Origin: a virus
Strand: one strand, 5' to 3'
Virus record (IMG/VR): IMGVR_UViG_3300036790_000240
Coordinates: 1 to 21,591 of that record
Length of the DNA stretch: 21,591 bases
Shown: positions 711-19,677 of the stretch, in pieces
How positions within the stretch are numbered: the stretch's first letter is position 1
Layout: every line of letters starts with the position of its first letter
Program-made: the position numbers and the translations under genes
The notes under the pieces: generated by a model
Seen by the model: the letters and a program-made list of their open reading frames with translations, nothing else
What the model was told of the DNA's origin: nothing
The model's database searches: none

Positions 711-729
711 TGTTACAGCTTCTGTAACA
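711..729. promoter_or_regulatory. Dispersed dyad, copy 1 (intergenic)
   Basis: TGTTACAG-CTT-CTGTAACA is a perfect 8-bp dyad with a 3-base centre. This is the only one of six copies that is intergenic; it ends 21 bases before the ATG at 751. It could be an operator for that gene or, like the other copies, a site with a genome-wide role. Weak promoter-like bases (TACACT at 739-744) follow it. Confidence 0.75.
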
Positions 730-750: not shown

Positions 751-1005
751 ATGGGCACCAGCACAGACCAACGGTCGAACGCGCGCATCATCGCGTACAA
801 CGCGAAGGAAGTTCACTATCTGCGCACGGTGAACATCGTCACCACGCAGGCGCTGGCTAAGGCGCTCCACTTCAAAGAGTACCTGCAAGCCACTGCGGCC
901 CAGGCCGCGGCAAAGCCGAACCTCGTGCCGACGTTCATGGCGGCAGCGAGTTCAACAAAAGGTTTGCCCACCATTTACATTAACGGATATACTGCACCTT
1001 CCTAA
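751..1005 (+). CDS. Small protein of unknown function
   Basis: The ATG at 751 opens an 84-residue frame that I do not recognise. The middle (about residues 25-65) is alanine-rich and probably helical, and there is no membrane segment or cysteine. No good Shine-Dalgarno site precedes the start, so the gene is less certain than its neighbours. Support comes from fitting between a regulatory-looking intergenic region and the next gene, and from the lack of a better frame on either strand. Its last codons carry promoter-like bases for the next gene. Confidence 0.45.
   Translation: MGTSTDQRSNARIIAYNAKEVHYLRTVNIVTTQALAKALHFKEYLQATAAQAAAKPNLVPTFMAAASSTKGLPTIYINGYTAPS
964..993 (+). promoter_or_regulatory. 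Candidate sigma70-type promoter for the Acb2/Tad1-like gene
   Basis: TTGCCC (964-969) and TATACT (988-993) are separated by 18 bases, matching 4 of 6 and 5 of 6 consensus positions. Transcription would begin near 1000, about 35 bases before the ATG at 1035. The element lies inside the last codons of the preceding small gene and includes the 9-mer ATTAACGGA (979-987), which recurs at 13038 and 20792. Confidence 0.4.
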
Positions 1006-1034: not shown

Positions 1035-1334
1035 ATGCTGAACCGGAAATACGATGCACACACCGGAGAGTGGACCCCCATGGCGCAGCTTCACAAATCG
1101 ACGTTCGAATATCTGAAGCCATCCGAAACGCAGCTTCAGGATATGGCATGCATGCGGACGTGCTTTGCGCGTTTTGCCGCGGAACTGGATCAGGTGCTGC
1201 CGCCCGGGCCGGACAAGACTTTTATCTTTCGTGAACTGCGTACGCTCGGCATGTGGGTGAATGTTGCGCTCACGCGTCACGCCGACGGCGCCCCGAGGGA
1301 AAGCGTTGCTGCCAAGGACGATACAACGGGATAA
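1035..1334 (+). CDS. Acb2/Tad1-like small protein (possible cyclic-nucleotide sponge)
   Basis: This 99-residue protein has the pattern I associate with the Acb2/Tad1 hairpin family: FEYLKP (24-29), then two predicted helices joined by a proline turn, PPGPDKT (56-62), and a last helix with MWVNVALTR (73-81). Family members usually show F-x-Y-x-x-P near the start and a closing MW-A-N-A-A-I-x-R-like helix. Acb2 and Tad1 proteins are phage anti-defence factors that bind the cyclic nucleotide signals of CBASS and Thoeris systems in the host cytoplasm. The start is set by GGGAGGG at 1024-1030. The family assignment is from memory of its pattern, without alignment. An unrelated small helical phage protein is the main alternative. 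Confidence 0.5.
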   Translation: MLNRKYDAHTGEWTPMAQLHKSTFEYLKPSETQLQDMACMRTCFARFAAELDQVLPPGPDKTFIFRELRTLGMWVNVALTRHADGAPRESVAAKDDTTG

Positions 1335-1473: not shown

Positions 1474-1716
1474 ATGTTACCTGTCATGCTGTTCATTACG
1501 TTTGCCGCCGTTGGCCAGGGTTGGGTGACTGTCATCGATGACGAAGTCGGCCAGAAAGGCTCGTTCGCCACCCTGCAGGAGTGCGAGGCCGCGAAGCTGC
1601 CGGCGCTCGGCAAGGTCGCAGACGATCTGAAGACACGCCCTAATCTGGCGCTCGGGGATGCGTTCTGTTTTGACACGAGCGTCCTGCCGGGAGCGAGCTA
1701 CGCGCAGCCTGAATAA
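1474..1716 (+). CDS. Small exported or membrane-anchored protein of unknown function
   Basis: The 80-residue product starts with a short hydrophobic stretch, MLPVMLFITFAAVGQGW, that could be a signal peptide or anchor. It is followed by a soluble part with two cysteines (in LQECEAAK and DAFCFDT) that could form a disulfide in the periplasm. The frame is open further upstream, but AAGGAG at 1462-1467 places the start at the ATG at 1474. I do not recognise the family. Small exported phage proteins often act in lysis, superinfection exclusion or membrane alteration, but nothing here selects among these. Confidence 0.6.
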   Translation: MLPVMLFITFAAVGQGWVTVIDDEVGQKGSFATLQECEAAKLPALGKVADDLKTRPNLALGDAFCFDTSVLPGASYAQPE

Positions 1717-2492: not shown

Positions 2493-2523
2493 ATATTAGC
2501 CATGGCTTGGTATGACACTCATG

Positions 2524-2588
2524 GGTGCGCGGTGCTTGTGGCCTTTGATGGAGGGCTGCGAAGAACTAGGGGGTTCGGCCCGCGCACC
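2524..2588 (+). repeat. 9-bp inverted repeat with long loop in the leader of the winged-helix gene
   Basis: GGTGCGCGG (2524-2532) matches CCGCGCACC (2580-2588) exactly with 47 bases between. The right arm ends three bases before the direct repeats at 2591-2610. In RNA it would close a large loop in the leader of the 2632 gene; in DNA it could be a pair of distant binding sites. GC-rich sequence makes a chance match more likely than for the other repeats here. Confidence 0.35.
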
Positions 2589-2590
2589 TG

Positions 2591-2610
2591 CTGTTTACCT
2601 TCTATTTACC
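2591..2610 (+). promoter_or_regulatory. Tandem direct repeats at 11-bp spacing (candidate operator)
   Basis: CTGTTTACC (2591-2599) and CTATTTACC (2602-2610) agree at 8 of 9 bases and start exactly 11 bases apart. OmpR/PhoB-family proteins bind direct repeats of about this period, one monomer per repeat in tandem. The site lies 21 bases upstream of the start of a gene for such a winged-helix protein, so autoregulation is the natural inference. Confidence 0.5.
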
Positions 2611-2631
2611 AGCGAACAGCAAGGTAGCGGC

Positions 2632-3279
2632 ATGAGTTCACCGGCCCCCGACGACGCTGACGCTATCCCCGTGGAACTCCACGCTCCTATACAACGGGCG
2701 GCGTGTGAAGGTATTCCTGTTGGGGCAATCGGACGTATTTTCGCCTACGAACTGGGCGAAGTGTACATTGTGCTGAACTATCTGCACTCGATCGGCTCGA
2801 TCTCAGAAGTCCCCAAGCCTGACTGGCCGCCGACCGCGCGCGATGCCGATCGCTTGCCGCAGTTCGACGCCAAGCCGCAGGCGAGCAATCTACAGTTCGT
2901 AGCGCAGCGCGTGTTCAAGCTGACCAAACTCGAAGCCGGCTTCTTGACAGCGCTGATCCGATGTGAACACGCGGACAAAGGGATGCTGCACGGGATCATC
3001 GAGCAGCAACGCATGCAACGGCAGTCCCGGCCGAACAAGCTGGAACTTACGGACCCGAAGATGGTCGACGTGATGATCTGCAAGCTGCGGAAGAAATTGC
3101 GCGATCACGACGCGCAGTTCAATGGCGCCGTGCAAACTGTGTGGGGCGGCGGCTATTTCATTGACCCGAAGACCAAGGCAGCGCTATTGTCCCTCCTGGC
3201 AGACAATGGAGCCATCAATGTCAAAGCCGAAATCGCGAACGCCACAGCCAACGTCCTCATTGCCGCTGCCCGAGACTAA
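2632..3279 (+). CDS. OmpR/PhoB-type winged-helix DNA-binding protein without receiver domain
   Basis: The C-terminal half (about residues 94-178 of 215) matches the winged-helix effector domain of response regulators. It has a strand then FKLTKLEAGFLTALI, a recognition-helix region DPKMVDVMICKLRKKL (141-156), and the wing VQTVWGGGYFI (168-177), which parallels the family's TVRGxGYxL hairpin. There is no phosphoacceptor receiver domain. Residues 17-60 look like a second helix-turn-helix, so the protein may have two DNA-binding parts. The frame is open 120 bases further upstream, but AAGGTAG at 2621-2627 favours the ATG at 2632. It is likely a phage transcription regulator. The direct repeats just upstream fit self-control. 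Whether it binds the dispersed dyad is untested. Confidence 0.7.
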   Translation: MSSPAPDDADAIPVELHAPIQRAACEGIPVGAIGRIFAYELGEVYIVLNYLHSIGSISEVPKPDWPPTARDADRLPQFDAKPQASNLQFVAQRVFKLTKLEAGFLTALIRCEHADKGMLHGIIEQQRMQRQSRPNKLELTDPKMVDVMICKLRKKLRDHDAQFNGAVQTVWGGGYFIDPKTKAALLSLLADNGAINVKAEIANATANVLIAAARD

Positions 3280-4092: not shown

Positions 4093-5588
4093 GTCCATCC
4101 TGCCGAATTTATACGCACCGCGTTCTTTTTGGGGCGCGGCCGCATGTACTCTCCGATGTAGCTGGTCAGGCCTCCGTGGACCGTGAGCGCCAGATACTGC
4201 AGATCGTCGACCACATGCGAGAACGCGATGTGGACGCCGTCGATGGTGATGCCATTTTCTTTGTCGGGGGTGGGCTTAAGAATGCCGGTCTTGGTTTTTG
4301 TAAATCGGTATCCACCAGCCAACGCTCGACATAGGACAGGGCATCCCGAGCGATTAATAAGCAGCGTTGGGCCTCCGTTAGTTTGTCGGAGAAGGAGGGC
4401 TTCAATTGCTCTAAGTCGGGGTTCAATGTCGTTTGTAACAGCCGGGAATGCAGGGAAGCCAAATCGTTGCAGCAGTTCGAAACTACTTTCTTCGCTGTGA
4501 CTGTTTTTCGCCACACCGGACGGGTCGCCCACCAAAGCAACTCGGTAGGGCATGTATCGGTCGGTAAGCAACCGCGGCCGCAAGTTCTGCTGCAGATGTT
4601 TTTCAAGACCCACGTTGATGCCTGGGACTTCTTCATGGATGATCAGCCTTCCCATATGATCGCATTGTGCGATCAGGCTCCACGGGTTACGGCCGAAGTC
4701 CTGCCCGACGAGGATCGGGTAGCCCGGGAATAAGTTGGTTTCCTCGACGATATGGAATTGAGGGTTGAACGTGTTCTTGAAGACTGCGGCGCCGCTCGGA
4801 TCGTCGCCGTATTGTGCATGCACGTAGCGCTTCACCCAGTCCGATGCCTCGCCGTACATCCCCACAAGGCGCTCGTAATAGCGGCGCCCTTGCGTGCGAC
4901 GCATTTGACTATATTCTGGCAGTTTCATTGTTACAGGTGACTGTAACAGCCATTCCAGATTTTCGGCTTCGGGGCTCATGCCACTCGGCTGACGAAAGAG
5001 TGACCAGTCTGGTATCTGCATGGCTTCCATGGCTGTCATGAAGCCGTGCCACTCGCTCATTTCCGTGGGCATGTTGGAATCACAAATTATTCCATGCCAT
5101 GTTGGGGTTCCGCGGCCGCCGCTTGGGTATCGCCCTAAACGCCCTGAAATTGGAGCCAAAATGGAGATATCACTTTCAATTGCCTCTGAAATCCAGGCGC
5201 CCGTCAACTGCATGGACAGTACGCGGGCCTGATCTTCGGCGCTTTCAAGCGGCAGGAATATCCATTCACTGCGGACGTTATCGAAGCAGACGTGATAAAT
5301 ACTTTCGCTGACTTTCCAAATGCCTAAGCCGTTGGTGGCGAGCCACGTATCGCAGTCTTTGAGTACTGTATCTTTTAACGATTTCAAGGTTGTACGAATA
5401 ATCCCAAACCGAGTATATTTATAGCCGTCTTGTCCGGGCGCTTGCATAAGGGCGCGACGTAAGAGTTCAAGGATACAGGCGGTTGTTTTTCCGGAGCCTA
5501 CTGGTCCGACTATAATGCGGCCAAACGCTTCCGACTTCATAAAACGGGCGCAGGTGGCGGGAGCATTATAGGTTAGATTATTCGCCAT
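4089..5588 (-). CDS. terL: Terminase large subunit (ATPase/nuclease)
   Basis: The 499-residue protein is the DNA packaging motor. Walker A reads GPVGSGKTT (28-36). A Walker B-like strand ending in a catalytic acid is LTGAWISEAIE (128-138). The C-terminal RNase H-like nuclease has acids at D297 (VGQDFGR), D355 (VGDPSG) and D461/D462 (HVVDDLQYL). The enzyme would pump DNA through the portal into the prohead and cut the concatemer. The ATG at 5588 lies 11 bases inside the end of the upstream HNH gene. It is encoded on the strand opposite to portal and capsid, so packaging and head genes need separate promoters. One dispersed dyad lies within it at 4929-4948. Confidence 0.92.
   Translation of the reverse strand: MANNLTYNAPATCARFMKSEAFGRIIVGPVGSGKTTACILELLRRALMQAPGQDGYKYTRFGIIRTTLKSLKDTVLKDCDTWLATNGLGIWKVSESIYHVCFDNVRSEWIFLPLESAEDQARVLSMQLTGAWISEAIESDISILAPISGRLGRYPSGGRGTPTWHGIICDSNMPTEMSEWHGFMTAMEAMQIPDWSLFRQPSGMSPEAENLEWLLQSPVTMKLPEYSQMRRTQGRRYYERLVGMYGEASDWVKRYVHAQYGDDPSGAAVFKNTFNPQFHIVEETNLFPGYPILVGQDFGRNPWSLIAQCDHMGRLIIHEEVPGINVGLEKHLQQNLRPRLLTDRYMPYRVALVGDPSGVAKNSHSEESSFELLQRFGFPAFPAVTNDIEPRLRAIEALLLRQTNGGPTLLINRSGCPVLCRALAGGYRFTKTKTGILKPTPDKENGITIDGVHIAFSHVVDDLQYLALTVHGGLTSYIGEYMRPRPKKNAVRINSAGWT
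4929..4948. promoter_or_regulatory. Dispersed dyad, copy 2 (inside terminase gene)
   Basis: TGTTACAG-GTGA-CTGTAACA is a perfect 8-bp dyad with a 4-base centre, deep inside the large terminase coding region. It is far from any gene start, so ordinary promoter control is unlikely at this copy. Confidence 0.75.
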
Positions 5589-5922
5589 GTTGACGCAGCC
5601 ACAGTACAAGATTGGTTAGCGTTTGGGGGTTTTCATATGCATACCCTAATATTGAGTTGCAACGTGTACATAGTAAACCGCGTACCTTTCGTGTCACATG
5701 ATCATGGTCTACATGCAATACGCCGTGATATTCTTCATGCGGCGTTCTAGTACATGTGGCGCAATGACCATTTTGCTTTTGTAGCATATTTTCATAATCT
5801 TGTAGGCTGAGGCCGTAATTGCGTCGCAGATTGGACGATCTCGCTGAGCGTAAAAATGCTGCCCGGTTACGCACGCGCCAGCGTTTCGCTTTGGTTTGTC
5901 CGTCATGTATTTTCTTTGACAT
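5578..5922 (-). CDS. Endonuclease VII-type HNH nuclease
   Basis: This 114-residue protein has the zinc-binding and catalytic layout of the recombination endonuclease VII/HNH family: CATC (54-57), VDHDH (71-75), then RGLLCTRCN (81-89) and a C-terminal helical tail. A basic N-terminus and a YGLSLQDYENML helix precede the first cysteine pair, as usual in the family. The ATG at 5922 shares a base with the phosphoesterase stop (TAATG), and the end overlaps terL by 11 bases. The DNA is AT-richer than its phosphoesterase neighbour. Free-standing phage genes of this family are often homing endonucleases, though a role in resolving replicated DNA for packaging is possible beside terL. A relative lies at 15725-16090. 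Confidence 0.85.
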   Translation of the reverse strand: MSKKIHDGQTKAKRWRVRNRAAFLRSARSSNLRRNYGLSLQDYENMLQKQNGHCATCTRTPHEEYHGVLHVDHDHVTRKVRGLLCTRCNSILGYAYENPQTLTNLVLWLRQHGE

Positions 5923-7070
5923 TACTGCCCCCAGCCGACCCAAGCCTTATCGGCGTGGGCTTTCTTGCGGCCTTCCAGATAGACCGCCCAGCGCGCCGTG
6001 ATGCCATGCTCGGGATGCACGAAAAACAGCGCTTGGGTCGGCCGGTCATAGCTGGCGCGCAGAACCAGCCGGGCGTATTCGTCGTAGCCCTTCACGCAGC
6101 CGTTAAAGATGGCGTTCGGCAACCACAGAAGCTGGTGATAATGGCCGCCGAGCAGGAAATCGAAGTCGACGCCGATATGGCGATAGCTGTTGCCGATCTT
6201 CACCGTGCCGCGGGCGATCGGGCCGAGCGCACCGATGATGCCGTCGCCGCCCTTGACGCCCATGCGGTCGCCGTGGGTCAGGAGAAACCGGGTCCCATAG
6301 ACACTGAAGTAGGCATCCGGATCGACCGGGATTAGGAATTTGACGTTCTCGCTGCACCCGGCGATCTGTTGACCTGTGAATGGGTCGACGTGCCCTTCGA
6401 AATAGCGTTTCAGGTTGCACGAAATGAGCCAGTCATAGTTCGTGTAGACGGCTCCTTTCGATCGAGGCTTCAAGGTGCCACGCCCGTGGTTTCCCACGAC
6501 GGAAACCACGAACACGCGCCCGAAAGCGGCCTCTAACTGCTTGATGCCGGCGGCCAGGAGATCGGTTAGCTCGTCCACGGCTTGCTGCGGTGTTCGGTCA
6601 TTCGTGACCATCAGTTCTTCGTGGATATCGCCGCCGATCAAGTCGCCACCGAGACAGACCACGATGCCTGGATACTTGACGTTGGCTCGGCCCATGTGGT
6701 TGTGGGATAGATCGATCGTTGTCCCGAACAGCCGTTTCAAGCGCTCGGCGCTGATTTCGGCGTTAAACTCGTTGAGCCCGCGGGTCTCGTCCTTACTGAC
6801 GCGTTCGCCGTGGTGAATGTCACTGACCATGAGGACCGGGCCGCCCCGCTCGCCATGTACGACGCCCTTGCCGGCTACCCACTTAGGAGGCGCCGGGTCG
6901 CGTTCGGCGATACCGAACATGATCTTGCGTATGCTTTCGGCGGTGTCCTCTTTCGTTTGGAGTTTGCGGGTAAGGATGCGGGCCGCCGTGAGTTCGCGCT
7001 GTAATTTGCGCTGTTCATTGGTCGCGTCGCGCAAGCGTTCAGTGTCCGTCTTGAGAAGCGTACCCATCAT
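5922..7070 (-). CDS. Calcineurin-like metallophosphoesterase
   Basis: The 382-residue protein has all core metal-binding motifs of the metallophosphoesterase superfamily in order: SDIHHGE (D84, H86), LGGDLIGGD (about 140-148), VVGNHGRG (191-198), LTHGDRMG (264-271, H266) and GGHYH (308-312). It should hydrolyse phosphoester bonds with two metal ions; the substrate could be nucleic acid, a nucleotide or another phosphoester. The first 50 residues form a charged coiled-coil-like extension before the catalytic domain. GGAG lies just upstream of two adjacent ATG codons (7070 and 7067), either of which could start. It is in a packaging operon with terL and a probable terS, so a role in processing DNA at packaging is possible but not shown. 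Confidence 0.88.
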   Translation of the reverse strand: MMGTLLKTDTERLRDATNEQRKLQRELTAARILTRKLQTKEDTAESIRKIMFGIAERDPAPPKWVAGKGVVHGERGGPVLMVSDIHHGERVSKDETRGLNEFNAEISAERLKRLFGTTIDLSHNHMGRANVKYPGIVVCLGGDLIGGDIHEELMVTNDRTPQQAVDELTDLLAAGIKQLEAAFGRVFVVSVVGNHGRGTLKPRSKGAVYTNYDWLISCNLKRYFEGHVDPFTGQQIAGCSENVKFLIPVDPDAYFSVYGTRFLLTHGDRMGVKGGDGIIGALGPIARGTVKIGNSYRHIGVDFDFLLGGHYHQLLWLPNAIFNGCVKGYDEYARLVLRASYDRPTQALFFVHPEHGITARWAVYLEGRKKAHADKAWVGWGQ

Positions 7071-7080
7071 TTATCTCCGA

Positions 7081-7776
7081 TTAGAGGCCGGTTTCAATGT
7101 GCTCTTGCGGGTCGAATAACGGTAAGTCCGCGCTGTTCCCTTGGGGGAGTGGTTGTACCGCTGGTATCTCGCTAGCGTGATCGTGGAGGTTTGCAAGCGG
7201 AAGCGCCGCGCGCTCCCCTTCGATGACTGGTCGTAGCGCTGCTGCGTCTCCCGGCCTTTGGCTGTCTGGGAGTAACGCCGCGACGCCGCCCTCCATTGGG
7301 CGCGTTGTTTCAATATGGAGGCGGTCGTTGCCGAGGTTGATATTGATTGAGAATTTTTCACCAGTCGGCTGCGCGATCTGATTGGCTTTTGGACCCATGC
7401 CCGCGAGGTCCGCGAACAGTTTTGCCGTTTCAACAACATCGGCTAGGTTCTCACGGGCTGCGGACATGCGCGCGGCGATCTTCGGTAACGCATCTTCTAT
7501 CGCAATTGCGGCTGCTAATGCAACCCTTTCCTTTGTAGATTGGGGTTTATGCCAATTTTGCACCGCGTCTTCGAGCACGCGTTGAAAAAATTCGTTGGTC
7601 GCTAGGCTGTCATATTGTTGCTGGGTCAGCCCGTGCTTTTTCAGCACCGCAGGCATGTCTTCCATGGCCACTGCCACGTCGCGTACGAGCGCGGCGATGC
7701 TGTGGATGGTGAAATCCGCTGGCAATGTTACAGTGGCGGTAACAGGTGCGGGGGCGGTCGGGATGGTGGTTATCAT
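7081..7776 (-). CDS. Probable terminase small subunit
   Basis: This 231-residue protein has a segment at about 40-60 (VLKKHGLTQQQYDSLA) that reads as a helix-turn-helix. It is followed by long helices rich in Ala and Glu up to about residue 130, then a Pro-rich, probably flexible tail. That plan, DNA-binding head plus helical oligomerisation region, fits small terminase subunits, which recognise phage DNA and hand it to the large subunit. Position as first gene of the leftward packaging operon supports this. There is no catalytic motif. The start at 7776 lacks a good Shine-Dalgarno site. Copy 3 of the dyad lies within codons 11-17. An unrelated DNA-binding protein remains possible. Confidence 0.5.
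   Translation of the reverse strand: MITTIPTAPAPVTATVTLPADFTIHSIAALVRDVAVAMEDMPAVLKKHGLTQQQYDSLATNEFFQRVLEDAVQNWHKPQSTKERVALAAAIAIEDALPKIAARMSAARENLADVVETAKLFADLAGMGPKANQIAQPTGEKFSININLGNDRLHIETTRPMEGGVAALLPDSQRPGDAAALRPVIEGERAALPLANLHDHASEIPAVQPLPQGNSADLPLFDPQEHIETGL
7726..7744. promoter_or_regulatory. Dispersed dyad, copy 3 (near start of probable terS)
   Basis: TGTTACAG-TGG-CGGTAACA has one mismatch in the right arm. It begins 32 bases inside the leftward gene that starts at 7776, close enough to the divergent promoter region to affect its transcription. On the coding strand it falls in a Val-Thr repeat, which could partly explain it. Confidence 0.55.
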
Positions 7777-10216: not shown

Positions 10217-11020
10217 ATGCAGCGGTTGCATTTTCTTAGCGGGCTTCCACGTTCCGGGTCGACCTTGCTCGCTTCGATTTTGCGTCAGAACCCTCAAATC
10301 CACGCTTCGATCATGTCGCCTATCGGGCACGTTGTTACAGATGCTGTAACTGCGATGGGTGATCAAAATGAGGCGCACTCTTTTTTTGCATTCGGGGATC
10401 GGCCTGCGGTCGTACGCGGGATCATGGATGCATTTTATCGTGATGCGCGTCCTTGGGTATTTGATAATAGCCGGCGGTGGACGGCAAATATGGATTTACT
10501 TGCAACGGTATATCCAGACGCGCGGGTGATCGCGATGGTCCGCCCTGTCCCTGAAATCGTAGACAGTTTCGAGCAGGTTTTTCGAAAAGGCGCCCTCAAT
10601 CCCAGCAGGATATACGCCGGCGTCTCCAATTTGACGGTCTATGGCCGATATGATGCACTTATGGCGCCTGGGGCGGTGTTACGGTTCGCTTATGACGCAT
10701 TGCGCGATGCGTTCTATGGCCCCCACAAAAAGAACATGCTTGTGCTGGAATACAGTGCGCTCGCGAGCAATCCACAGGCGGTTATGGATGGATTGACTAA
10801 TTTGCTCGATCTTCCGAAATGGGACTATGATTTTAATGCAATACTGCCTATTCCAGGGGCTGCTGAGTTTGATCAAGAACTATCGACGCCTGGATTGCAC
10901 GCTCTCATGCCGACTGTCCGACACGACAATCGGCCGTTCATTATCCCACCCGATCTTGTCGCGCGGTGTCCTCCGTCGTTCTGGCGCCCAGTTAAGGAAA
11001 GCGCAACCAGTCGTCCCTAG
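10217..11020 (+). CDS. Sulfotransferase family protein
   Basis: This 267-residue protein has the two PAPS-binding signatures of sulfotransferases: the N-terminal 5'-phosphosulfate loop LSGLPRSGSTLL (7-18) and a 3'-phosphate site RVIAMVRPVPEIVDSF (103-118), with R109 and S117 at the classical spacing of eight. The enzyme would move sulfate from PAPS to an acceptor hydroxyl, probably a sugar or protein side chain. It directly follows the portal gene and precedes three collagen-like genes, with glycosyltransferases beyond, so glycans or fibre proteins are the likeliest acceptors. The DNA is AT-richer than the portal gene, which suggests separate acquisition. Copy 4 of the dyad lies at 10333-10350. 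Confidence 0.8.
   Translation: MQRLHFLSGLPRSGSTLLASILRQNPQIHASIMSPIGHVVTDAVTAMGDQNEAHSFFAFGDRPAVVRGIMDAFYRDARPWVFDNSRRWTANMDLLATVYPDARVIAMVRPVPEIVDSFEQVFRKGALNPSRIYAGVSNLTVYGRYDALMAPGAVLRFAYDALRDAFYGPHKKNMLVLEYSALASNPQAVMDGLTNLLDLPKWDYDFNAILPIPGAAEFDQELSTPGLHALMPTVRHDNRPFIIPPDLVARCPPSFWRPVKESATSRP
10333..10350. promoter_or_regulatory. Dispersed dyad, copy 4 (inside sulfotransferase gene)
   Basis: TGTTACAG-ATG-CTGTAAC is a perfect 7-bp core dyad with a 3-base centre; the last outer base pair is lost. It lies about 115 bases into the sulfotransferase gene, in codons for Val-Thr-Asp-Ala-Val-Thr. Confidence 0.7.
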
Positions 11021-11050: not shown

Positions 11051-11644
11051 ATGTCATTCACCGGTGTAACTGGCTCTTACGATGCTGACCGAAACTCGGT
11101 CGGCAATTTTTTGCAGCAAGTCGTCGCCGCGATTGAAAATGGCACTGCAGGTGGGGCGAGTGGTCCCACTGGCGCAACGGGCTCTGGAACTGGTCCCACG
11201 GGCGCCGCAGGCGCTGGAATTACCGGCCCGACCGGCGCTACCGGCTCGAATACAGGCCCGCAAGGTTCTGTTGGCTGGGCTGGCAACACGGGCAATACTG
11301 GACCGACCGGTATCACTGGTTTCGCTGGCCAGACTGGTTCTGCCGGTCCATTTGGGAACACTGGCCCGAACGCCGGCGTGACTGGCCCGACGGGCCCGAC
11401 TGGCCCCACGGCGGGGGCAACCGGTTCTGCTGGGAACACGGGCAAAACGGGCTACACGGGCCCCACTGGAACAACTGGTTCGCGCGGCATCGTTGGCGCG
11501 TTTGGTGCGAGCGGTCCCACGGGTCCGACTGGCCTCAATGTGCCTGGAAACATTTTCATTCCTCCGACTTCGAGCCCCGGTGTTACGGGACAAGTGTGGA
11601 ACAAGAATGGCGTTCTCACGGTCTCGAACGGACCGGGCACGTAA
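11051..11644 (+). CDS. Collagen-like virion protein 1
   Basis: The 197-residue protein has three parts. An N-terminal helix (about 12-32, [12 protein letters not shown]) could start trimer formation. A long Gly-X-Y region from about 37 to 160 is rich in GPTG triplets with Thr or Pro at X and Y. A C-terminal block follows, [19 protein letters not shown], a motif I associate with phage collagen-like fibre proteins. Short breaks in the triplet pattern occur. Such regions fold as triple helices and form thin fibres on virions. Thr in GPT triplets is a known O-glycosylation site in BclA-type collagens, relevant to the glycosyltransferases downstream. AAGGAA precedes the ATG. It is the first of three paralogues. 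Confidence 0.85.
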
Positions 11645-11653
11645 GGTGTGATC

Positions 11654-12250
11654 ATGGCGAATGCCCCAAACAGTCTTTTCGCGTCCAAGGACTATGATCC
11701 GAACCTGATCCCTGAAGTTCTGGGAACGGTCATTGCTGCGCTCAATGCGGGTGGTATCAGTGGTCCCACGGGGCCGACTGGTTCTACTGGCTTGCCCGGC
11801 GGCGCCACCGGAAACACAGGCCCAACTGGATCGTATACTGGCCCAACTGGGCCGATTGGAGGCGCATCCGGCTCTGCAGGCGCTACAGGTGTTACCGGCG
11901 CGACTGGTTTCGCCGGCCCCCAAGGCGCGGCGGGCTCGGGCGGCGTGACGGGGAACACAGGCCCGACTGGTCCGACCGGTCTTAATTCGGGCAACAACGC
12001 AACCGGCCCAACAGGGCCAACCGGATCGTCTACCGGCAAAGCTGGCCCAACGGGCATTACGGGCTCAACAGGTAATACAGGCCCGACTGCGAGCACCGGT
12101 CCGAATGGCCCGCAAGGTGCCGCCGGCGCTACAGGAATTACTGGCCCAACTGGGTCCAGCAACTTTGTGTTCACGCCGCCCACAACGAACCCACACGTCG
12201 TGGGACAGGTGTGGAACAACGCTGGTGTGCTAACGATTTCGGCGGGGTAA
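11654..12250 (+). CDS. Collagen-like virion protein 2
   Basis: This 198-residue paralogue has the same plan as its neighbours: a short head ending in the helix [14 protein letters not shown] (about 26-39), a Gly-X-Y region rich in GPTG to about residue 170, and a closing [19 protein letters not shown] block. The conserved ends and variable middle suggest tandem duplication with drift in the repeat region. A GTG at 11648 could start two codons earlier, but the ATG at 11654 with AGGTG upstream is preferred. It would assemble as a homotrimer or mix with the other two to form virion fibres. Which part of the virion carries them is not shown. Confidence 0.85.
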
Positions 12251-12254
12251 AATC

Positions 12255-13010
12255 ATGACCGAACCTGCAAGCAATCCGAGTGGCCCGATCCTCAATCCGA
12301 CGAATAAGCCGTCGACGTACGATGATAATATCATCCCGGCGGTTCTGTTGGAGGTTGTGCAGGCCATCAATTCTGGCTCGATCACTGGTCCGACCGGTTT
12401 AGCCGGCCATGCCGGGGCTAACACGAATACTGGCCCGACCGGCTCCACCGGTGGGACGTTGACCGTCGTTGTCACCCCGCTCGCGAACCCGGGTGAAACC
12501 GGCCCGTTCTTCACAGGCACGTTCCAGTACGTAGGACCGCAGGGTCCCGCCGGCGGCGTGCGCGGTCCGACTGGCTTTACGGGCTATACCGGCCCGCAAG
12601 GTTCGACCGGTGCGACGGGAAATACTGGTTCTGCAGGTGGAACTGGTATCACTGGTGGGACTGGCTTCCAGGGTTTGCCATATTTTGTAGGGCCGCTTGG
12701 CCCGACGGGAGGGACTGGGCTTACAGGCCCAACTGGTTCTGTTGGCGCGACTGGTCCGACGGGTTCAACTGGATCGACTGGTCCTACGGGCGCCACTGGT
12801 TCCACTGGCAGCGCCTTATTTGTTCCTCAGACGGGTCCTAGCGGCGCGTTTACCGGGTCATATGTCTACAATGGTCCGATTGGCTCGATAGGTCCGGTGA
12901 CGAACTCGAACTTTATCCCGCCGACAACCAACCCGCAGATACCGGGTGCTGTTTGGAATAACAACGGCGTTCTCACGATCGCGCCCGGTCAACGCGGTGG
13001 CAACGCATAA
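12255..13010 (+). CDS. Collagen-like virion protein 3
   Basis: The longest of the three (251 residues) starts with a 30-residue head and the helix [14 protein letters not shown], then a short Gly-X-Y stretch. A non-collagen island at about 58-100 ([16 protein letters not shown] and following) breaks the triplets before a second long Gly-X-Y stretch to about residue 195. Two near-duplicate segments, ending [12 protein letters not shown] and [12 protein letters not shown], bracket the second stretch. The C-terminal block [19 protein letters not shown] is shared with its paralogues. It starts four bases after the previous stop. The island could be a hinge or binding module. The promoter for the glycosyltransferase begins just after its stop. 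Confidence 0.85.
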
Positions 13011-13042: not shown

Positions 13043-13079
13043 CGGACCATGTGAAGGAGACTTCCATGGTCCGTTTTTG
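13041..13079 (+). terminator. Intrinsic terminator-like hairpin over the glycosyltransferase start
   Basis: AACGGACCATG (13041-13051) pairs exactly with CATGGTCCGTT (13065-13075). Inside, after a one-base bulge, GAAG (13053-13056) pairs with CTTC (13061-13064) around a GAGA tetraloop of the stable GNRA type. The right arm runs into TTTTT (13074-13078). This has the form of an intrinsic terminator, but it also contains the ribosome binding site AAGGAGA (13054-13060) and the ATG at 13066. A transcript reading through from the collagen genes should terminate or hide that start; one from the local promoter should not. Confidence 0.65.
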
Positions 13080-15090
13080 TTTGAATGGAATTGTTCGTAA
13101 TGAGGCTGACCGCATTGAACGCATGCTAGAAAGCGTTGCTCCCTTCCTTGCTTACGTCGTTATGGTCGACACGGGCAGCACTGACGATACCAAAGGCAAG
13201 ATCGAACGGTTCTGCGAAGCCAAGCACATCCCCTGTCAGATTTTCGATACTGAGTTCGTGGACTTCTCGCAGGCGCGCAATGCCGCGCTCGCGCACGCGC
13301 GTGCGGTCTGGTGTGAAACGCAAGCGTTCGATTATCTGATGCTGGTCGATGCCGATATGGAACTCAAAGTTTCCGATCCGCAGGTATTCGACGGCCTCAC
13401 TGGTCCCTCCTACGACATTTATCAGTATGCGGGCGCTGTGCATTACCAAAACAGGCGCCTCCTGAAGGCGGATCAGTTCGGTCAGTACCGCGGCGTCACA
13501 CATGAATATCTGGATGTGGAGACAGCCGGTTGTTTGCCGGAACTTGCCGTTTGGTTCCTCGATCATGCGGATGGCTCTAATCGCGTGGACAAGTTCAAGC
13601 GCGACGTACGCCTGTTGAAGGAGGGTCTGCGCGCTGAACCCAACAACGAGCGCTACATGTTCTATTTGGCGCAGTCATATCGGGATGCTGGCGCCCCTGT
13701 TAGTGCAGCCGCATGGTATAAACGGCGCGTGGCGGCCGGCGGGTGGGACGAGGAAGTCTGGCAGGCCCAGTGCAATTATGCCGCTTGTTTGCGTTCCATG
13801 GGAAAATATGACGCCTTTGTAACCGAGACGATGAAGGCGTATCAAATGCGCCCTTCGCGGGCAGAGAGCATCTACGATCTCGCCAAGTATTTCCGAGAGA
13901 AAGGTGAGAACGCGTTGGCGGTCCTCTTTGCTGAAACCGGGGTTGCGATCCCTCCCAGCAAAGATGCGCTCTTTGTCAACGACATGGTCTACCAAACGGG
14001 CTGTCTTGAGGAAGTGTCGATTGCTGGGTTCTACGTTCCGGGCAAGGAAAAGGCCGGCGCCAACGCGACGTACAAGCTAGCCACCATGCAGACGCCGTAT
14101 GGGCAGGCGCGTGAAACGGCGCGCAACAATATGTTCTACTACTTGAAGCCGCTGGTCGAGCACTGTCCATCGTTCACATGGCGATCGATCGACTGGGTGC
14201 CCCCGGTTGAGGGCTGGACCTGCATGAACCCGTCGATCACGACGATGAACGGCTCTCTTGTGATGAACATGCGTACGGTGAATTACCGCATGGACGAGCA
14301 GGGGCGCTATCTGGTTCGCGGCGTATACGATGATGGCACGCTCGGCTGCAATGCGAACGCCGAGAACCCGATCAACACACGTAACTGGCTGCTTCGCGTT
14401 CTTCCAGATTTGACGGTCGCCGGCGCCCAGGAAATCAAACCCCCGGTGCATATGGCGATTGAGTTTCCGTTGGTGGTCGGGTTTGAGGATGTGCGGCTGT
14501 TTGAATGGGGAAAGGAGCTACACGGTTCTGCGACGGTGCGCCAGATCGCACGCGATGGTCAATGCGAGCAAGTCCGATTTCAGATCGAAGACTGGGACAG
14601 CGACCCGCGGATCGGATTACGGTTCACACGCATGTTGCGCGAGCCGCGTGTGGCCGAAAAGAACTGGTCGCCGTGGGTTCGCGGTAGCACGTTGAAATTC
14701 ATGTATCAGCCGGGCCTTGTGGTTGACAAGTATGGGGCCACCGAAGCGATCCATGATACCGGTTTGCACTCTATTGATCTCCGCGGCGGCACGCAGATTG
14801 TGATGTTCCGAGGCGGTTGGTTGTCAGTAGTTCATGAAGCCCGCCAGCTTCCCGGCAGCGCCAAACGCTACTACTGGCATCGGTTTGTCTGGTATGATGA
14901 TAAAGGCGCACTCCAACGCATGTCGGAGCCGTTCGTGTTTAACGATCGCGTTATCGAGTTCGCTGCTGGTATGACGTGGCTTGACGCGAGCCGACTGGTG
15001 ATCTCGTATGGGTTCAAAGACGAGGAAGCCCGTTTGGGAACGATACTCGACACGGACGTTGAAAGGATGCTGGCATGGCCTGTAAAATAA
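13066..15090 (+). CDS. GT2 glycosyltransferase with TPR-like middle and beta-propeller-like C-terminus
   Basis: The 674-residue protein starts with a GT-A fold of family 2: CLNGIVRNEADRIERML (5-21), VVMVDTGSTDDT (31-42) and the metal-binding DXD in MLVDADME (D95, D97). Residues about 180-300 look like TPR-type helical repeats (YMFYLAQSYRDAGAP). The C-terminal half has motifs of a glycosidase-type five-bladed propeller: CMNPSI near 385, GFEDVRLFEWG near 472, GSTLKFMYQPG near 541 and ISYGFKDEEA near 646. It would transfer a sugar from a nucleotide sugar; the propeller may bind or process glycan. The frame opens at GTG 13051, but AAGGAGA at 13054-13060 sets the ATG at 13066. Expression is probably governed by the promoter and hairpin at its start. 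Confidence 0.8.
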   Translation: MVRFCLNGIVRNEADRIERMLESVAPFLAYVVMVDTGSTDDTKGKIERFCEAKHIPCQIFDTEFVDFSQARNAALAHARAVWCETQAFDYLMLVDADMELKVSDPQVFDGLTGPSYDIYQYAGAVHYQNRRLLKADQFGQYRGVTHEYLDVETAGCLPELAVWFLDHADGSNRVDKFKRDVRLLKEGLRAEPNNERYMFYLAQSYRDAGAPVSAAAWYKRRVAAGGWDEEVWQAQCNYAACLRSMGKYDAFVTETMKAYQMRPSRAESIYDLAKYFREKGENALAVLFAETGVAIPPSKDALFVNDMVYQTGCLEEVSIAGFYVPGKEKAGANATYKLATMQTPYGQARETARNNMFYYLKPLVEHCPSFTWRSIDWVPPVEGWTCMNPSITTMNGSLVMNMRTVNYRMDEQGRYLVRGVYDDGTLGCNANAENPINTRNWLLRVLPDLTVAGAQEIKPPVHMAIEFPLVVGFEDVRLFEWGKELHGSATVRQIARDGQCEQVRFQIEDWDSDPRIGLRFTRMLREPRVAEKNWSPWVRGSTLKFMYQPGLVVDKYGATEAIHDTGLHSIDLRGGTQIVMFRGGWLSVVHEARQLPGSAKRYYWHRFVWYDDKGALQRMSEPFVFNDRVIEFAAGMTWLDASRLVISYGFKDEEARLGTILDTDVERMLAWPVK

Positions 15091-15725
15091 AGGTCGTGAC
15101 AGGCTACATCCCGCTTGCTGAGCATCCGCGGCCACCCGAGGAATACGGCGCGCTTGGGGAGAAGCTGCGCGAGCTACGCGTGCCGGTCCAGCCGTTCTAT
15201 GCCAACGTCACGTCGACGTGGCTGTATCAGATGATCGCGGCGCTCCCGTTTGCCCCGACGTGGTCGGTGGACGACAACGGCCTGAAGAATACTCTGCCGT
15301 ATCATTGTGTGCAGCACCAAAAGTTCCAGTGGCTTTTCGACGCGGCAAAGATGGACCCGGAGCCGGACACGTTCGTATGGGTTGATTATGGTTTGGCGCA
15401 TATCCCGCGCTGGTCTACAGGAGGTATGAATGTCTTTTTATCGCGTATTCGCCGCGGTGATTTCGCGATCCCTGGATGTCATCAACGAGCCGATATTCGT
15501 GACGATAAGCCTTGTTGGCGGTTTTGCGGTGGTCTTATGGTTGTTCCGCGCAGCAATATCGGTCCACTGAAGAATTTGATCCAAGCGATGGCGCTTTTGC
15601 ATGCGAGTGCCACGAAGAACATCACTTGGGAAGTGAACACGCTTGCTCGCGTTGAGCAGACGGACCGGCTGCCTATTCGTTGGTATCAAGCCGACCATGA
15701 CGCCTCTATGTATGAGAACTATTGA
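15075..15725 (+). CDS. Glycosyltransferase-like protein, resembling HtrL/YibB family
   Basis: This 216-residue protein starts with KVVTGYIPL and an HPRPPEEYGALG segment, then FVWVDYGLAH and CGGLMVVPR further on. The order resembles the HtrL/YibB/WlaTC group, in which a WxDxG-like motif plays the part of a metal or donor site. Membership is tentative. It overlaps the previous glycosyltransferase by 16 bases and has AAGGA upstream, so the two are almost certainly co-translated and act in one pathway, probably adding successive sugars. No signal peptide or membrane helix is seen; it should work in the cytoplasm. A non-catalytic glycan-related role is the alternative. Confidence 0.5.
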   Translation: MACKIKVVTGYIPLAEHPRPPEEYGALGEKLRELRVPVQPFYANVTSTWLYQMIAALPFAPTWSVDDNGLKNTLPYHCVQHQKFQWLFDAAKMDPEPDTFVWVDYGLAHIPRWSTGGMNVFLSRIRRGDFAIPGCHQRADIRDDKPCWRFCGGLMVVPRSNIGPLKNLIQAMALLHASATKNITWEVNTLARVEQTDRLPIRWYQADHDASMYENY

Positions 15726-16090
15726 TGGGCGGTCGGGCTGCAGCAGAACGTTGGCGAAAAGCCCATCCTAAGCGCGCACGCGAAATTCGTCGGAAAGCCG
15801 CTGCAGTTTGGCGCAATAAACACCCGGATCATGCTAAAGCTGCGGATCGCGCGAAGCATCTTTTGAAAAAATATGGCCTTACTATACCTGAATGGGAGCA
15901 ACGCTTTAATATACAAGGCAATCGCTGTGCGGTATGTGGATCAGGAACTGGGCCTTGGGCGACTGACCATGACCATATTACAGGAAAACTTCGAGATATC
16001 TTGTGTTTGCAATGTAATACCGATTTAGGCTTGATTGAAAATCGAACCCGCGTTACTCTTTTACAAACGTATTTGGAGAAGTGGCTATGA
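15725..16090 (+). CDS. Endonuclease VII-type HNH nuclease, second copy
   Basis: The 121-residue protein repeats the layout of the nuclease at 5578-5922: basic N-terminus, KKYGLTIPEWEQRF, CAVC (68-71), TDHDH (80-84) and ILCLQCN (92-98). All zinc and HNH positions are intact. The two are family members, not recent copies, since they differ at most positions outside the motifs. The DNA is visibly AT-richer than the flanking sugar genes, and it interrupts a glycan operon, both signs of a mobile homing-type gene. Yet its start overlaps the previous stop (TGATG) and its stop overlaps the next start (ATGA), so it sits without damage in the operon. TTG at 15722 is an alternative start. Confidence 0.85.
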   Translation: MGGRAAAERWRKAHPKRAREIRRKAAAVWRNKHPDHAKAADRAKHLLKKYGLTIPEWEQRFNIQGNRCAVCGSGTGPWATDHDHITGKLRDILCLQCNTDLGLIENRTRVTLLQTYLEKWL

Positions 16091-16689
16091 GCACGTTTTA
16101 CTCATTCGAGGATTGGTGCGAGCGCGTGCTGCATCCAGAGGATACGAACCCGTGGAATTTTCGCACATGGGCGTTCTACGCAGAATACCGGACCAAATAT
16201 GCGATCGCCAAGATGGTGGCGCCGACCTCGATCCTGGAAATTGGGGTGCGATTTGGCTACGGCGCGCATTCGTTCCTGCTGGCATCGCCGGCGGCGCGGT
16301 ATGTCGGCTTGGACTTTGACGAGCCGAGTTGGGGGCCCTACAAAGGCAAGCCGCGAGAATGGGCTGAGAAGCATCTGCGCGAATATTTTCCGGGGGCGCC
16401 GATTGTTACAGTTGCCTGTAACACGCAAACAGAAGACCTCCCGTCGCTTGCAATGGCGGACCTTGTTCATATTGACGCCGACCACTCGCTTGAAGGTGCG
16501 CTGCGCGACATGATCAATTTCTGGCCGTTCACTCGTAAAGTGATGGTCGTGGACGACTATGCAGACATTCCTGCAGTCCGTGATGCTGTCAAGAATTTCA
16601 TAGAGCATGAGCCACGCACCATTCTTTTGCCGATCGCATCTATGCGTGGATCGGCGATCCTCGTGCGGGATGGGTGGAGAGGGCCATGA
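16087..16689 (+). CDS. Class I SAM-dependent methyltransferase-like protein
   Basis: This 200-residue protein has a class I methyltransferase core of the Methyltransf_24 type: ILEIGVRFGYGAHSFL (49-64, with E51, G53 and G57), YVGLDFDEP (72-80), DLVHIDADHSLEGALRD, and VMVVDDYADIPAVRDAV toward the end. It would methylate an unknown acceptor. Its place between glycosyltransferase genes, with ATGA overlaps on both sides, points to a sugar or glycan. GGAGAAG six bases upstream supports the ATG at 16087. Copy 5 of the dyad lies within it. Its length and motif order are similar to the methyltransferase at 84-650. Confidence 0.68.
   Translation: MSTFYSFEDWCERVLHPEDTNPWNFRTWAFYAEYRTKYAIAKMVAPTSILEIGVRFGYGAHSFLLASPAARYVGLDFDEPSWGPYKGKPREWAEKHLREYFPGAPIVTVACNTQTEDLPSLAMADLVHIDADHSLEGALRDMINFWPFTRKVMVVDDYADIPAVRDAVKNFIEHEPRTILLPIASMRGSAILVRDGWRGP
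16404..16423. promoter_or_regulatory. Dispersed dyad, copy 5 (inside methyltransferase gene)
   Basis: TGTTACAG-TTGC-CTGTAACA is a perfect 8-bp dyad with a 4-base centre, in the middle of the methyltransferase gene. The reading frame crosses its two arms differently (GTT ACA against TGT AAC), so a repeated peptide does not explain the symmetry here. Confidence 0.75.
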
Positions 16690-18624: not shown

Positions 18625-19677
18625 ATGGCCCCCACCCATCTTGCCCCGATCGATCCCGATGTTCCTGTTCCTCCCGCGGTAAAAGCTGCTGCTGCGCGCG
18701 CCGAGGCGATCCACGCTCAGGCGTATAACACGCCGCCCGCACCTGAGGCCGCGCCGGCCCCTGTGGCTGTCGCCGCGCCGGCTCCTGCGCCTGTGGCCGC
18801 GCCCGTCGCCGCGGCGGCTCCTGAGCCTGCGCTGGCTCCTGTTACAGCGCCTGTAACGGCGCCCGCACCTGAGGCCGCCCCGGCACCCGATGTGGACTGG
18901 CAGGCGCGCTATAGCGCTATGAAGGGCCGGTTCGATCAGAGCCAGAGCATGATCAACGAGCTACAAGGTCAAGTCAGCCAGCTTGGCGATGAAGTCGTGC
19001 GGCATACCCAATTGGCGCAGACCCGGGCGCCGCAGACGCGCTCCCTGCCGGTTCCGCTCTTGACAGCCGAGGACGAAAAGACATTCGGCCCTGAACTGAT
19101 CGACGTTGTCCGCCGTGCCGCGCAGTCAGCGGTGGCGCCGATCGTGTCCGAGGTCGAGCAGCGCACACAGCGTTTGACCCAGCAAGTTCAGCAAAATACG
19201 ATGGCCACTCTTTACGAGCGGCTGGATGGCGACATGCCGGACTGGCGGGCCATCAATATGAACCCGCGCTTCAAGGCGTGGCTGGCTTTACGCGATCTTT
19301 ACTCTGGTGCTGTAAAGCGAGAACTGTTGATGGACGCATTCCGACGGGCCGATGCCCCTCGGGTCTTGACGTTCTTCAAAGGGTTCGTCTCTGACGAACA
19401 AGCTACGGGCCAGTTACCAGCCCCGCAGCCCGGCGCACAGCCCGATCCGGCTCTGTTCCGCGCCCCAGCGGTTCCCCTGGAAACTTTGTCGACCCCTGGC
19501 AGAGCGCATCCGGCGAGCACGACGAGTGCGACGGCGGACAAACCTGTTTTCACCCGCGACAATATTCGCTGGTTCTACTCCAACGAGGGTATCGGTGCCT
19601 ACGCAGGTAGGCCGGACGCTCGGAAGGCGGACGAACAGCGCATCTTTGATGCACAGCGAGACGGTCGCGTCCGTTAA
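18625..19677 (+). CDS. Scaffold-like protein
   Basis: This 350-residue protein is placed immediately upstream of the major capsid gene and has the composition of a capsid scaffold. It has a long Pro/Ala-rich disordered section (about 25-90), then a coiled-coil-like segment with MKGRFDQSQSMINELQGQV and VEQRTQRLTQQVQQN. A folded region with Trp and aromatic residues and a flexible tail follow. Scaffolds shape the prohead and then leave. Within the Pro/Ala section PAPEAAPAP occurs twice in frame, 126 bases apart, showing repeat expansion. AAGGAG precedes the ATG. Copy 6 of the dyad lies between those repeats. A minor head protein is the alternative. Confidence 0.7.
   Translation: MAPTHLAPIDPDVPVPPAVKAAAARAEAIHAQAYNTPPAPEAAPAPVAVAAPAPAPVAAPVAAAAPEPALAPVTAPVTAPAPEAAPAPDVDWQARYSAMKGRFDQSQSMINELQGQVSQLGDEVVRHTQLAQTRAPQTRSLPVPLLTAEDEKTFGPELIDVVRRAAQSAVAPIVSEVEQRTQRLTQQVQQNTMATLYERLDGDMPDWRAINMNPRFKAWLALRDLYSGAVKRELLMDAFRRADAPRVLTFFKGFVSDEQATGQLPAPQPGAQPDPALFRAPAVPLETLSTPGRAHPASTTSATADKPVFTRDNIRWFYSNEGIGAYAGRPDARKADEQRIFDAQRDGRVR
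18840..18857. promoter_or_regulatory. Dispersed dyad, copy 6 (inside scaffold gene)
   Basis: TGTTACAG-CGC-CTGTAAC has a perfect 7-bp core and a 3-base centre. It encodes part of a repeated Pro-Val-Thr-Ala unit, which could account for some of the symmetry. However, it uses GTT, ACA and GTA in a stretch where nearby valines are mostly GTG or GTC. Confidence 0.6.

Follow-up and report, generated by a model that had tools for sequence, protein, structure and literature searches.

Does the small ORF at positions 1035-1334 of this viral DNA encode a member of the Acb2/Tad1 superfamily, as an earlier note made from the sequence alone had proposed, and, if so, does its product bind the ligands of the known members? 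The whole stretch analysed, referred to here as the window, is a 21.6 kb IMG/VR virus record in which terminase, portal and capsid genes are present. The ORF is read exactly as the earlier note gave it, and its product, P0001, contains the three peptides quoted there, FEYLKP at residues 24-29, PPGPDKT at 56-62 and MWVNVALTR at 73-81. The closest relative, L008, serves as the reference for the features of the locus, which are as follows.

711..729, no strand assigned: palindrome TGTTACAGCTTCTGTAACA, immediately before the small operon that includes the hairpin gene; equivalent at L008:5658-5676
751..1005, + strand: upstream co-oriented ORF of 84 aa, with 62% identity to its positional counterpart in L008
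1024..1030, + strand: Shine-Dalgarno-like GGGAGGG, 4 nt before the ATG of the 1035-1334 gene
1035..1334, + strand: Acb2/Tad1-hairpin-type gene, 99 aa plus stop, product P0001
1035..1088, + strand: N-terminal extension, residues 1-18, common to L008; predicted beta-hairpin
1110..1277, + strand: hairpin domain covering residues 26-81 and profile positions 2-58 of PF24729, from the Pfam match and the model
1284..1298, + strand: clade-specific tail D84-G-x-P-R88, from the clade alignment and subfamily comparison
1474..1716, + strand: downstream small ORF (80 aa) whose N-terminus is hydrophobic; the ORF downstream in L008 is a relative (33%)

The gene and its surroundings

The L008 homologue is 64% identical to P0001 over residues 1-88 (E = 3e-45), and its gene is also preceded by GGGAGG, similar to the GGGAGGG of the window. 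A scan of IMG/VR yielded 150 relatives of P0001, 80 of which were kept, and one more was found in a Rhizobiales genome assembly; the median dN/dS in the family is 0.29 (395 pairs). On the basis of the L008 identity, the IMG/VR relatives and this ratio, 1035-1334 is not a chance ORF.

The window and L008 have a common order of palindrome, ORF of 84-85 aa, hairpin gene and small ORF with a hydrophobic N-terminus, the upstream ORF of the window giving no family match. The palindrome, GTTACAG-N3/4-CTGTAAC, recurs across both phages. As TGTTACAG-N3/4-CTGTAACA it occurs six times in the window (711-729, 4929-4948, 7726-7744, 10333-10351, 16404-16423 and 18840-18858), three times exactly and three times with one mismatch, against an expectation of essentially none; most of the sites lie inside ORFs. 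The L008 record (65.8 kb) contains 16 sites at no more than two mismatches of GTTACAGNNNCTGTAAC versus two for the reversed control, and the palindrome was found in none of 43 other family records. It is a candidate for a dispersed operator ('stoperator') or for a ParB-like site.

The remainder of the window contains several other genes of note. The product of 2512-3279 has a winged-helix Trans_reg_C end and is possibly a phage regulator, and its relatives lie near the hairpin gene in six loci, of which the window is one. Three tandem collagen-like proteins (Gly-x-y, GPTG-rich), which are probably fibres, are encoded at 11051-13010; the long antisense ORFs across them were rejected as mirror artefacts. 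On their two sides, at 10217-11020 and 13051-15090, lie genes for a sulfotransferase (1.5e-17 to PF13469) and for a family 2 glycosyltransferase, which may possibly modify the virion or the host surface. Two Methyltransf_24 proteins (84-650 and 16081-16689) occur in this one small phage fragment. The ORF at 15722-16090 (+) matches endonuclease VII families and that at 5578-5943 (-) is similar by eye; the two are possibly recombination endonucleases.

Family membership and predicted fold

The earlier note had proposed a profile search and a structure prediction of the oligomer. Searched alone against the Pfam profile PF24729 (Acb2_Tad1_hairpin), P0001 reaches 15.5 bits (E = 0.02) and thus stays under the curated cut-off of 27 bits, whereas it matches phrog_1454 of PHROG directly (E = 1.2e-7), and the PF24729 cut-off is passed in 18 of the 19 records of its relatives, including L008, and in none of 14 control genomes. 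Five phage proteins obtained by tblastn all score above this cut-off and all match phrog_1454, and PF24729 is matched at E<=0.1 by 45 of 45 diverse clade members, with a best value of 5.1e-12. The profile of a mixed alignment, A1, composed of these five proteins, P0001 and L001, finds PDB entry 9ptq, 'Acb2 homolog 43' (E = 1.1e-7), which is the nearest solved relative by this profile, and it also matches Tad1 and T4 Acb2 weakly via the segment RE..A.[AL]T..E.A.MW.N. Among PDB chains the clade-only profile matched neither Acb2 nor Tad1, hhalign linked the clade to T4-type Acb2 weakly (only 20 columns aligned, 50% probability), and the single-sequence PDB search with P0001 gave chance matches only. 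NCBIfam gave no match to P0001 and PADLOC one stray match only. In a tree of 209 sequences, the 51 members used make up one clade (support 0.998). For the comparison of residues, these 51 unique sequences were compared with 155 unique ones from three other subfamilies, and the turn and the second helix align without gaps between the two sets.

An AlphaFold2 monomer model of P0001, built with 45 sequences, has a mean pLDDT of 83, with blocks over residues 31-80 at about 95-98. It contains a one-turn helix at 25-27 followed by helices 31-54 and 59-80 arranged as a hairpin, together with a beta-hairpin at 4-15 that is absent from most of the clade. The structure prediction, run here as a monomer, returned the two-helix hairpin, and in a Foldseek search of viral models nearly all of the top matches are named Acb2/Tad1 hairpin proteins, with modest E values (best 7e-3). 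Foldseek and VIA-align searches of the model against the PDB returned generic helical hairpins only, and comparison with CbTad1 (8kbf) gave a Z score of 4.5, equal at most to that of unrelated helical pairs; since the PDB fold matches are only generic, no solved fold is claimed on the strength of them.

The earlier assignment to Acb2/Tad1 is thus borne out by the relatives over the cut-off, the link to 9ptq and the predicted hairpin, although the score of P0001 alone counts against it. As judged from sequence and model, P0001 genuinely belongs to the Acb2/Tad1 hairpin superfamily, as a divergent member, and its clade is a large, little-studied branch, the specific changes of which fall within the known superfamily and do not constitute a new system. 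The curated PF24729 cut-off misses real members, as this clade shows.

Conserved pocket pair and clade-specific substitutions

The clade shares with PF24729 and phrog_1454 the F-x-[YF] motif, the Lys or Arg 15 residues further on, the P-x-[GS]-x-x-K turn, the [MF]W-x-N helix and the two-helix hairpin, but it has Pro or Ala for R59, Arg for T66, Arg for E69, Thr for A80 and Leu for H27, as well as the DGxPR tail. T4 Acb2 (Vs.4, 7uq2) and Pseudomonas p26 (8h2j, 8ixz) both carry a Tyr followed 15 residues later by a Lys (Y8/K23 and Y11/K26, respectively). In P0001, Y26 aligns with T4 Y8 in the Pfam alignments and R41 aligns with T4 K23 and p26 K26 in the multiple alignment; both residues are invariant in 51 of the 51 clade sequences, with Arg replacing Lys and the basic character kept. 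T4 Acb2 and p26 also resemble P0001 in having a short N-terminal segment followed by the hairpin, whereas P0001 is without their long insertion between the helices. In p26, we take Y11 and K26 to bind dinucleotides and R67, which aligns with P59 of P0001, to contact cyclic trinucleotides. In T4 Acb2, F82 forms a stack with the base and the Y8A substitution disrupts the binding of dinucleotides (PMC12657218), and T68M has been reported to lower binding (PMC12657230). In the alignment, F82 and T68 are without counterparts in P0001, which has T80 and R66 instead; the F82 column is Ala in p26, so that F82 is unconserved there too. The pocket argument is founded on T4 Y8 and conservation.

A second conserved patch differs between the clade and the three other subfamilies. 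In these 155 members, Arg accounts for 94-100% of column 59, Thr for 85-100% of column 66 and Glu for 91-100% of column 69, whereas in the clade Arg is found in 0% at column 59 (Pro/Ala) and in 100% at both column 66 and column 69. Tad1 and 9ptq keep the residues of all three columns, and p26 keeps the Arg and the Thr. The second helix of Tad1 (7uav, 8kbe family), [SG]-R-E-x-A-x-A-L-T-x-x-E-E-A-x-M-W-x-N, is the same module as that of P0001, but its R, T and E are P, R and R in P0001, which has only the predicted two-strand hairpin and not the four-stranded N-terminal antiparallel sheet of Tad1. Likewise, 9ptq has GREK/T/E versus GPDK/R/R in the clade, and Thr at the position of Y26. The clade ends in a near-invariant TRxxDGxPR.

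Of about 70 positions, 23 are invariant in the clade, in part through selection by the search patterns: FEYLKP and GPDKT were themselves such patterns, so that part of the conservation there arises by selection, and Q33, M37, R41, R66, R69, M73, W74, N76, R81, G85 and P87 lie outside them. The earlier note had ascribed a possible new ligand preference to the divergence of the closing helix from the usual MWANAAI. That motif is indeed usual in the other subfamilies, but A-to-V changes are common in the clade (V75 in 25% and V77 in 72%), so that the divergence is trivial; the idea itself survives with other residues, the real changes being Pro or Ala for R59, Arg for both T66 and E69, and the DGxPR tail. 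The patch formed by columns 59, 66 and 69 has probably been remodelled and the tail added, so that the ligand or ligand set is likely not the same as in Acb2 and Tad1.

Proposed function and alternatives

By homology with Acb2 and Tad1, P0001 is probably a nucleotide-signal sponge or binder. Sequence and model show a short N-terminal segment with Y26, followed by a pair of long antiparallel helices that the PxGPDKT turn connects. As in Acb2 and Tad1, the protomers may assemble into a hexamer-like oligomer and a nucleotide immune signal may be bound between them, with Y26 and R41 in a dinucleotide-type pocket; capture of the signal would leave the effectors of CBASS, Thoeris or similar systems inactive, giving P0001 an anti-defence role. 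Each record contains one copy of the hairpin gene and, outside L008, its neighbours differ between phages, which would fit an accessory gene with an anti-defence role. The striking uniformity of the clade, out of the ordinary for a protein in an arms race, counts against the sponge reading, as does T80 in place of the base-stacking F82 of T4 Acb2.

This uniformity would suit a conserved phage housekeeping factor with the same helical hairpin, acting in packaging, in lysis or as a virion accessory and not as a sponge, which we regard as possible but doubtful. The gene lies within 4 kb of the large terminase gene in 12 of 22 records versus 7.8 expected, a borderline excess (p = 0.025, and p = 0.085 in records of at least 20 kb), and in Corynebacterium phage PSonyx, Streptomyces phage Bing and Lactococcus phage P1046 the homologue adjoins lysis genes or lies close to them. 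However, neighbours and orientation vary among phages, the nucleotide-pocket pair Y26/R41 is invariant, and the superfamily members characterised by experiment are sponges.

It is very improbable that the clade-specific R66, R69, R81 and D84 make P0001 a nucleotide enzyme or carrier rather than a pure sponge: these residues are invariant or nearly so, with R66, R69 and D84 special to the clade, but the protein is very small and we know of no catalytic motif in it. No superfamily member is reported as an enzyme in the literature examined, although a recent preprint describes a sponge family with hydrolase members, others being suggested (PMC13232231). Least probable of all is a chance resemblance to Acb2/Tad1, which the sub-threshold PF24729 score and the generic PDB fold matches would allow but which is already contradicted by the relatives of P0001, through the direct phrog_1454 match, the 18 of 19 records over the cut-off and the alignment to the 155 members of other subfamilies, ungapped in the turn and the second helix.

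In conclusion, under the preferred sponge reading, it is conceivable, though we consider it rather unlikely, that the FEYLKP clade is a large sponge branch in environmental phages in which the relocated arginines (from column 59 to columns 66 and 69) and the DGxPR tail recognise a nucleotide signal that neither Acb2 nor Tad1 binds. The immune signals made by hosts can be read from their phages' sponge proteins, and a widespread clade that keeps the Tyr/basic pair and exchanges near-universal residues offers a focused route to an unrecognised signal or specificity; if the proposal is true, the FEYLKP clade would point to a defence signal that has so far not been linked with the hairpin fold.
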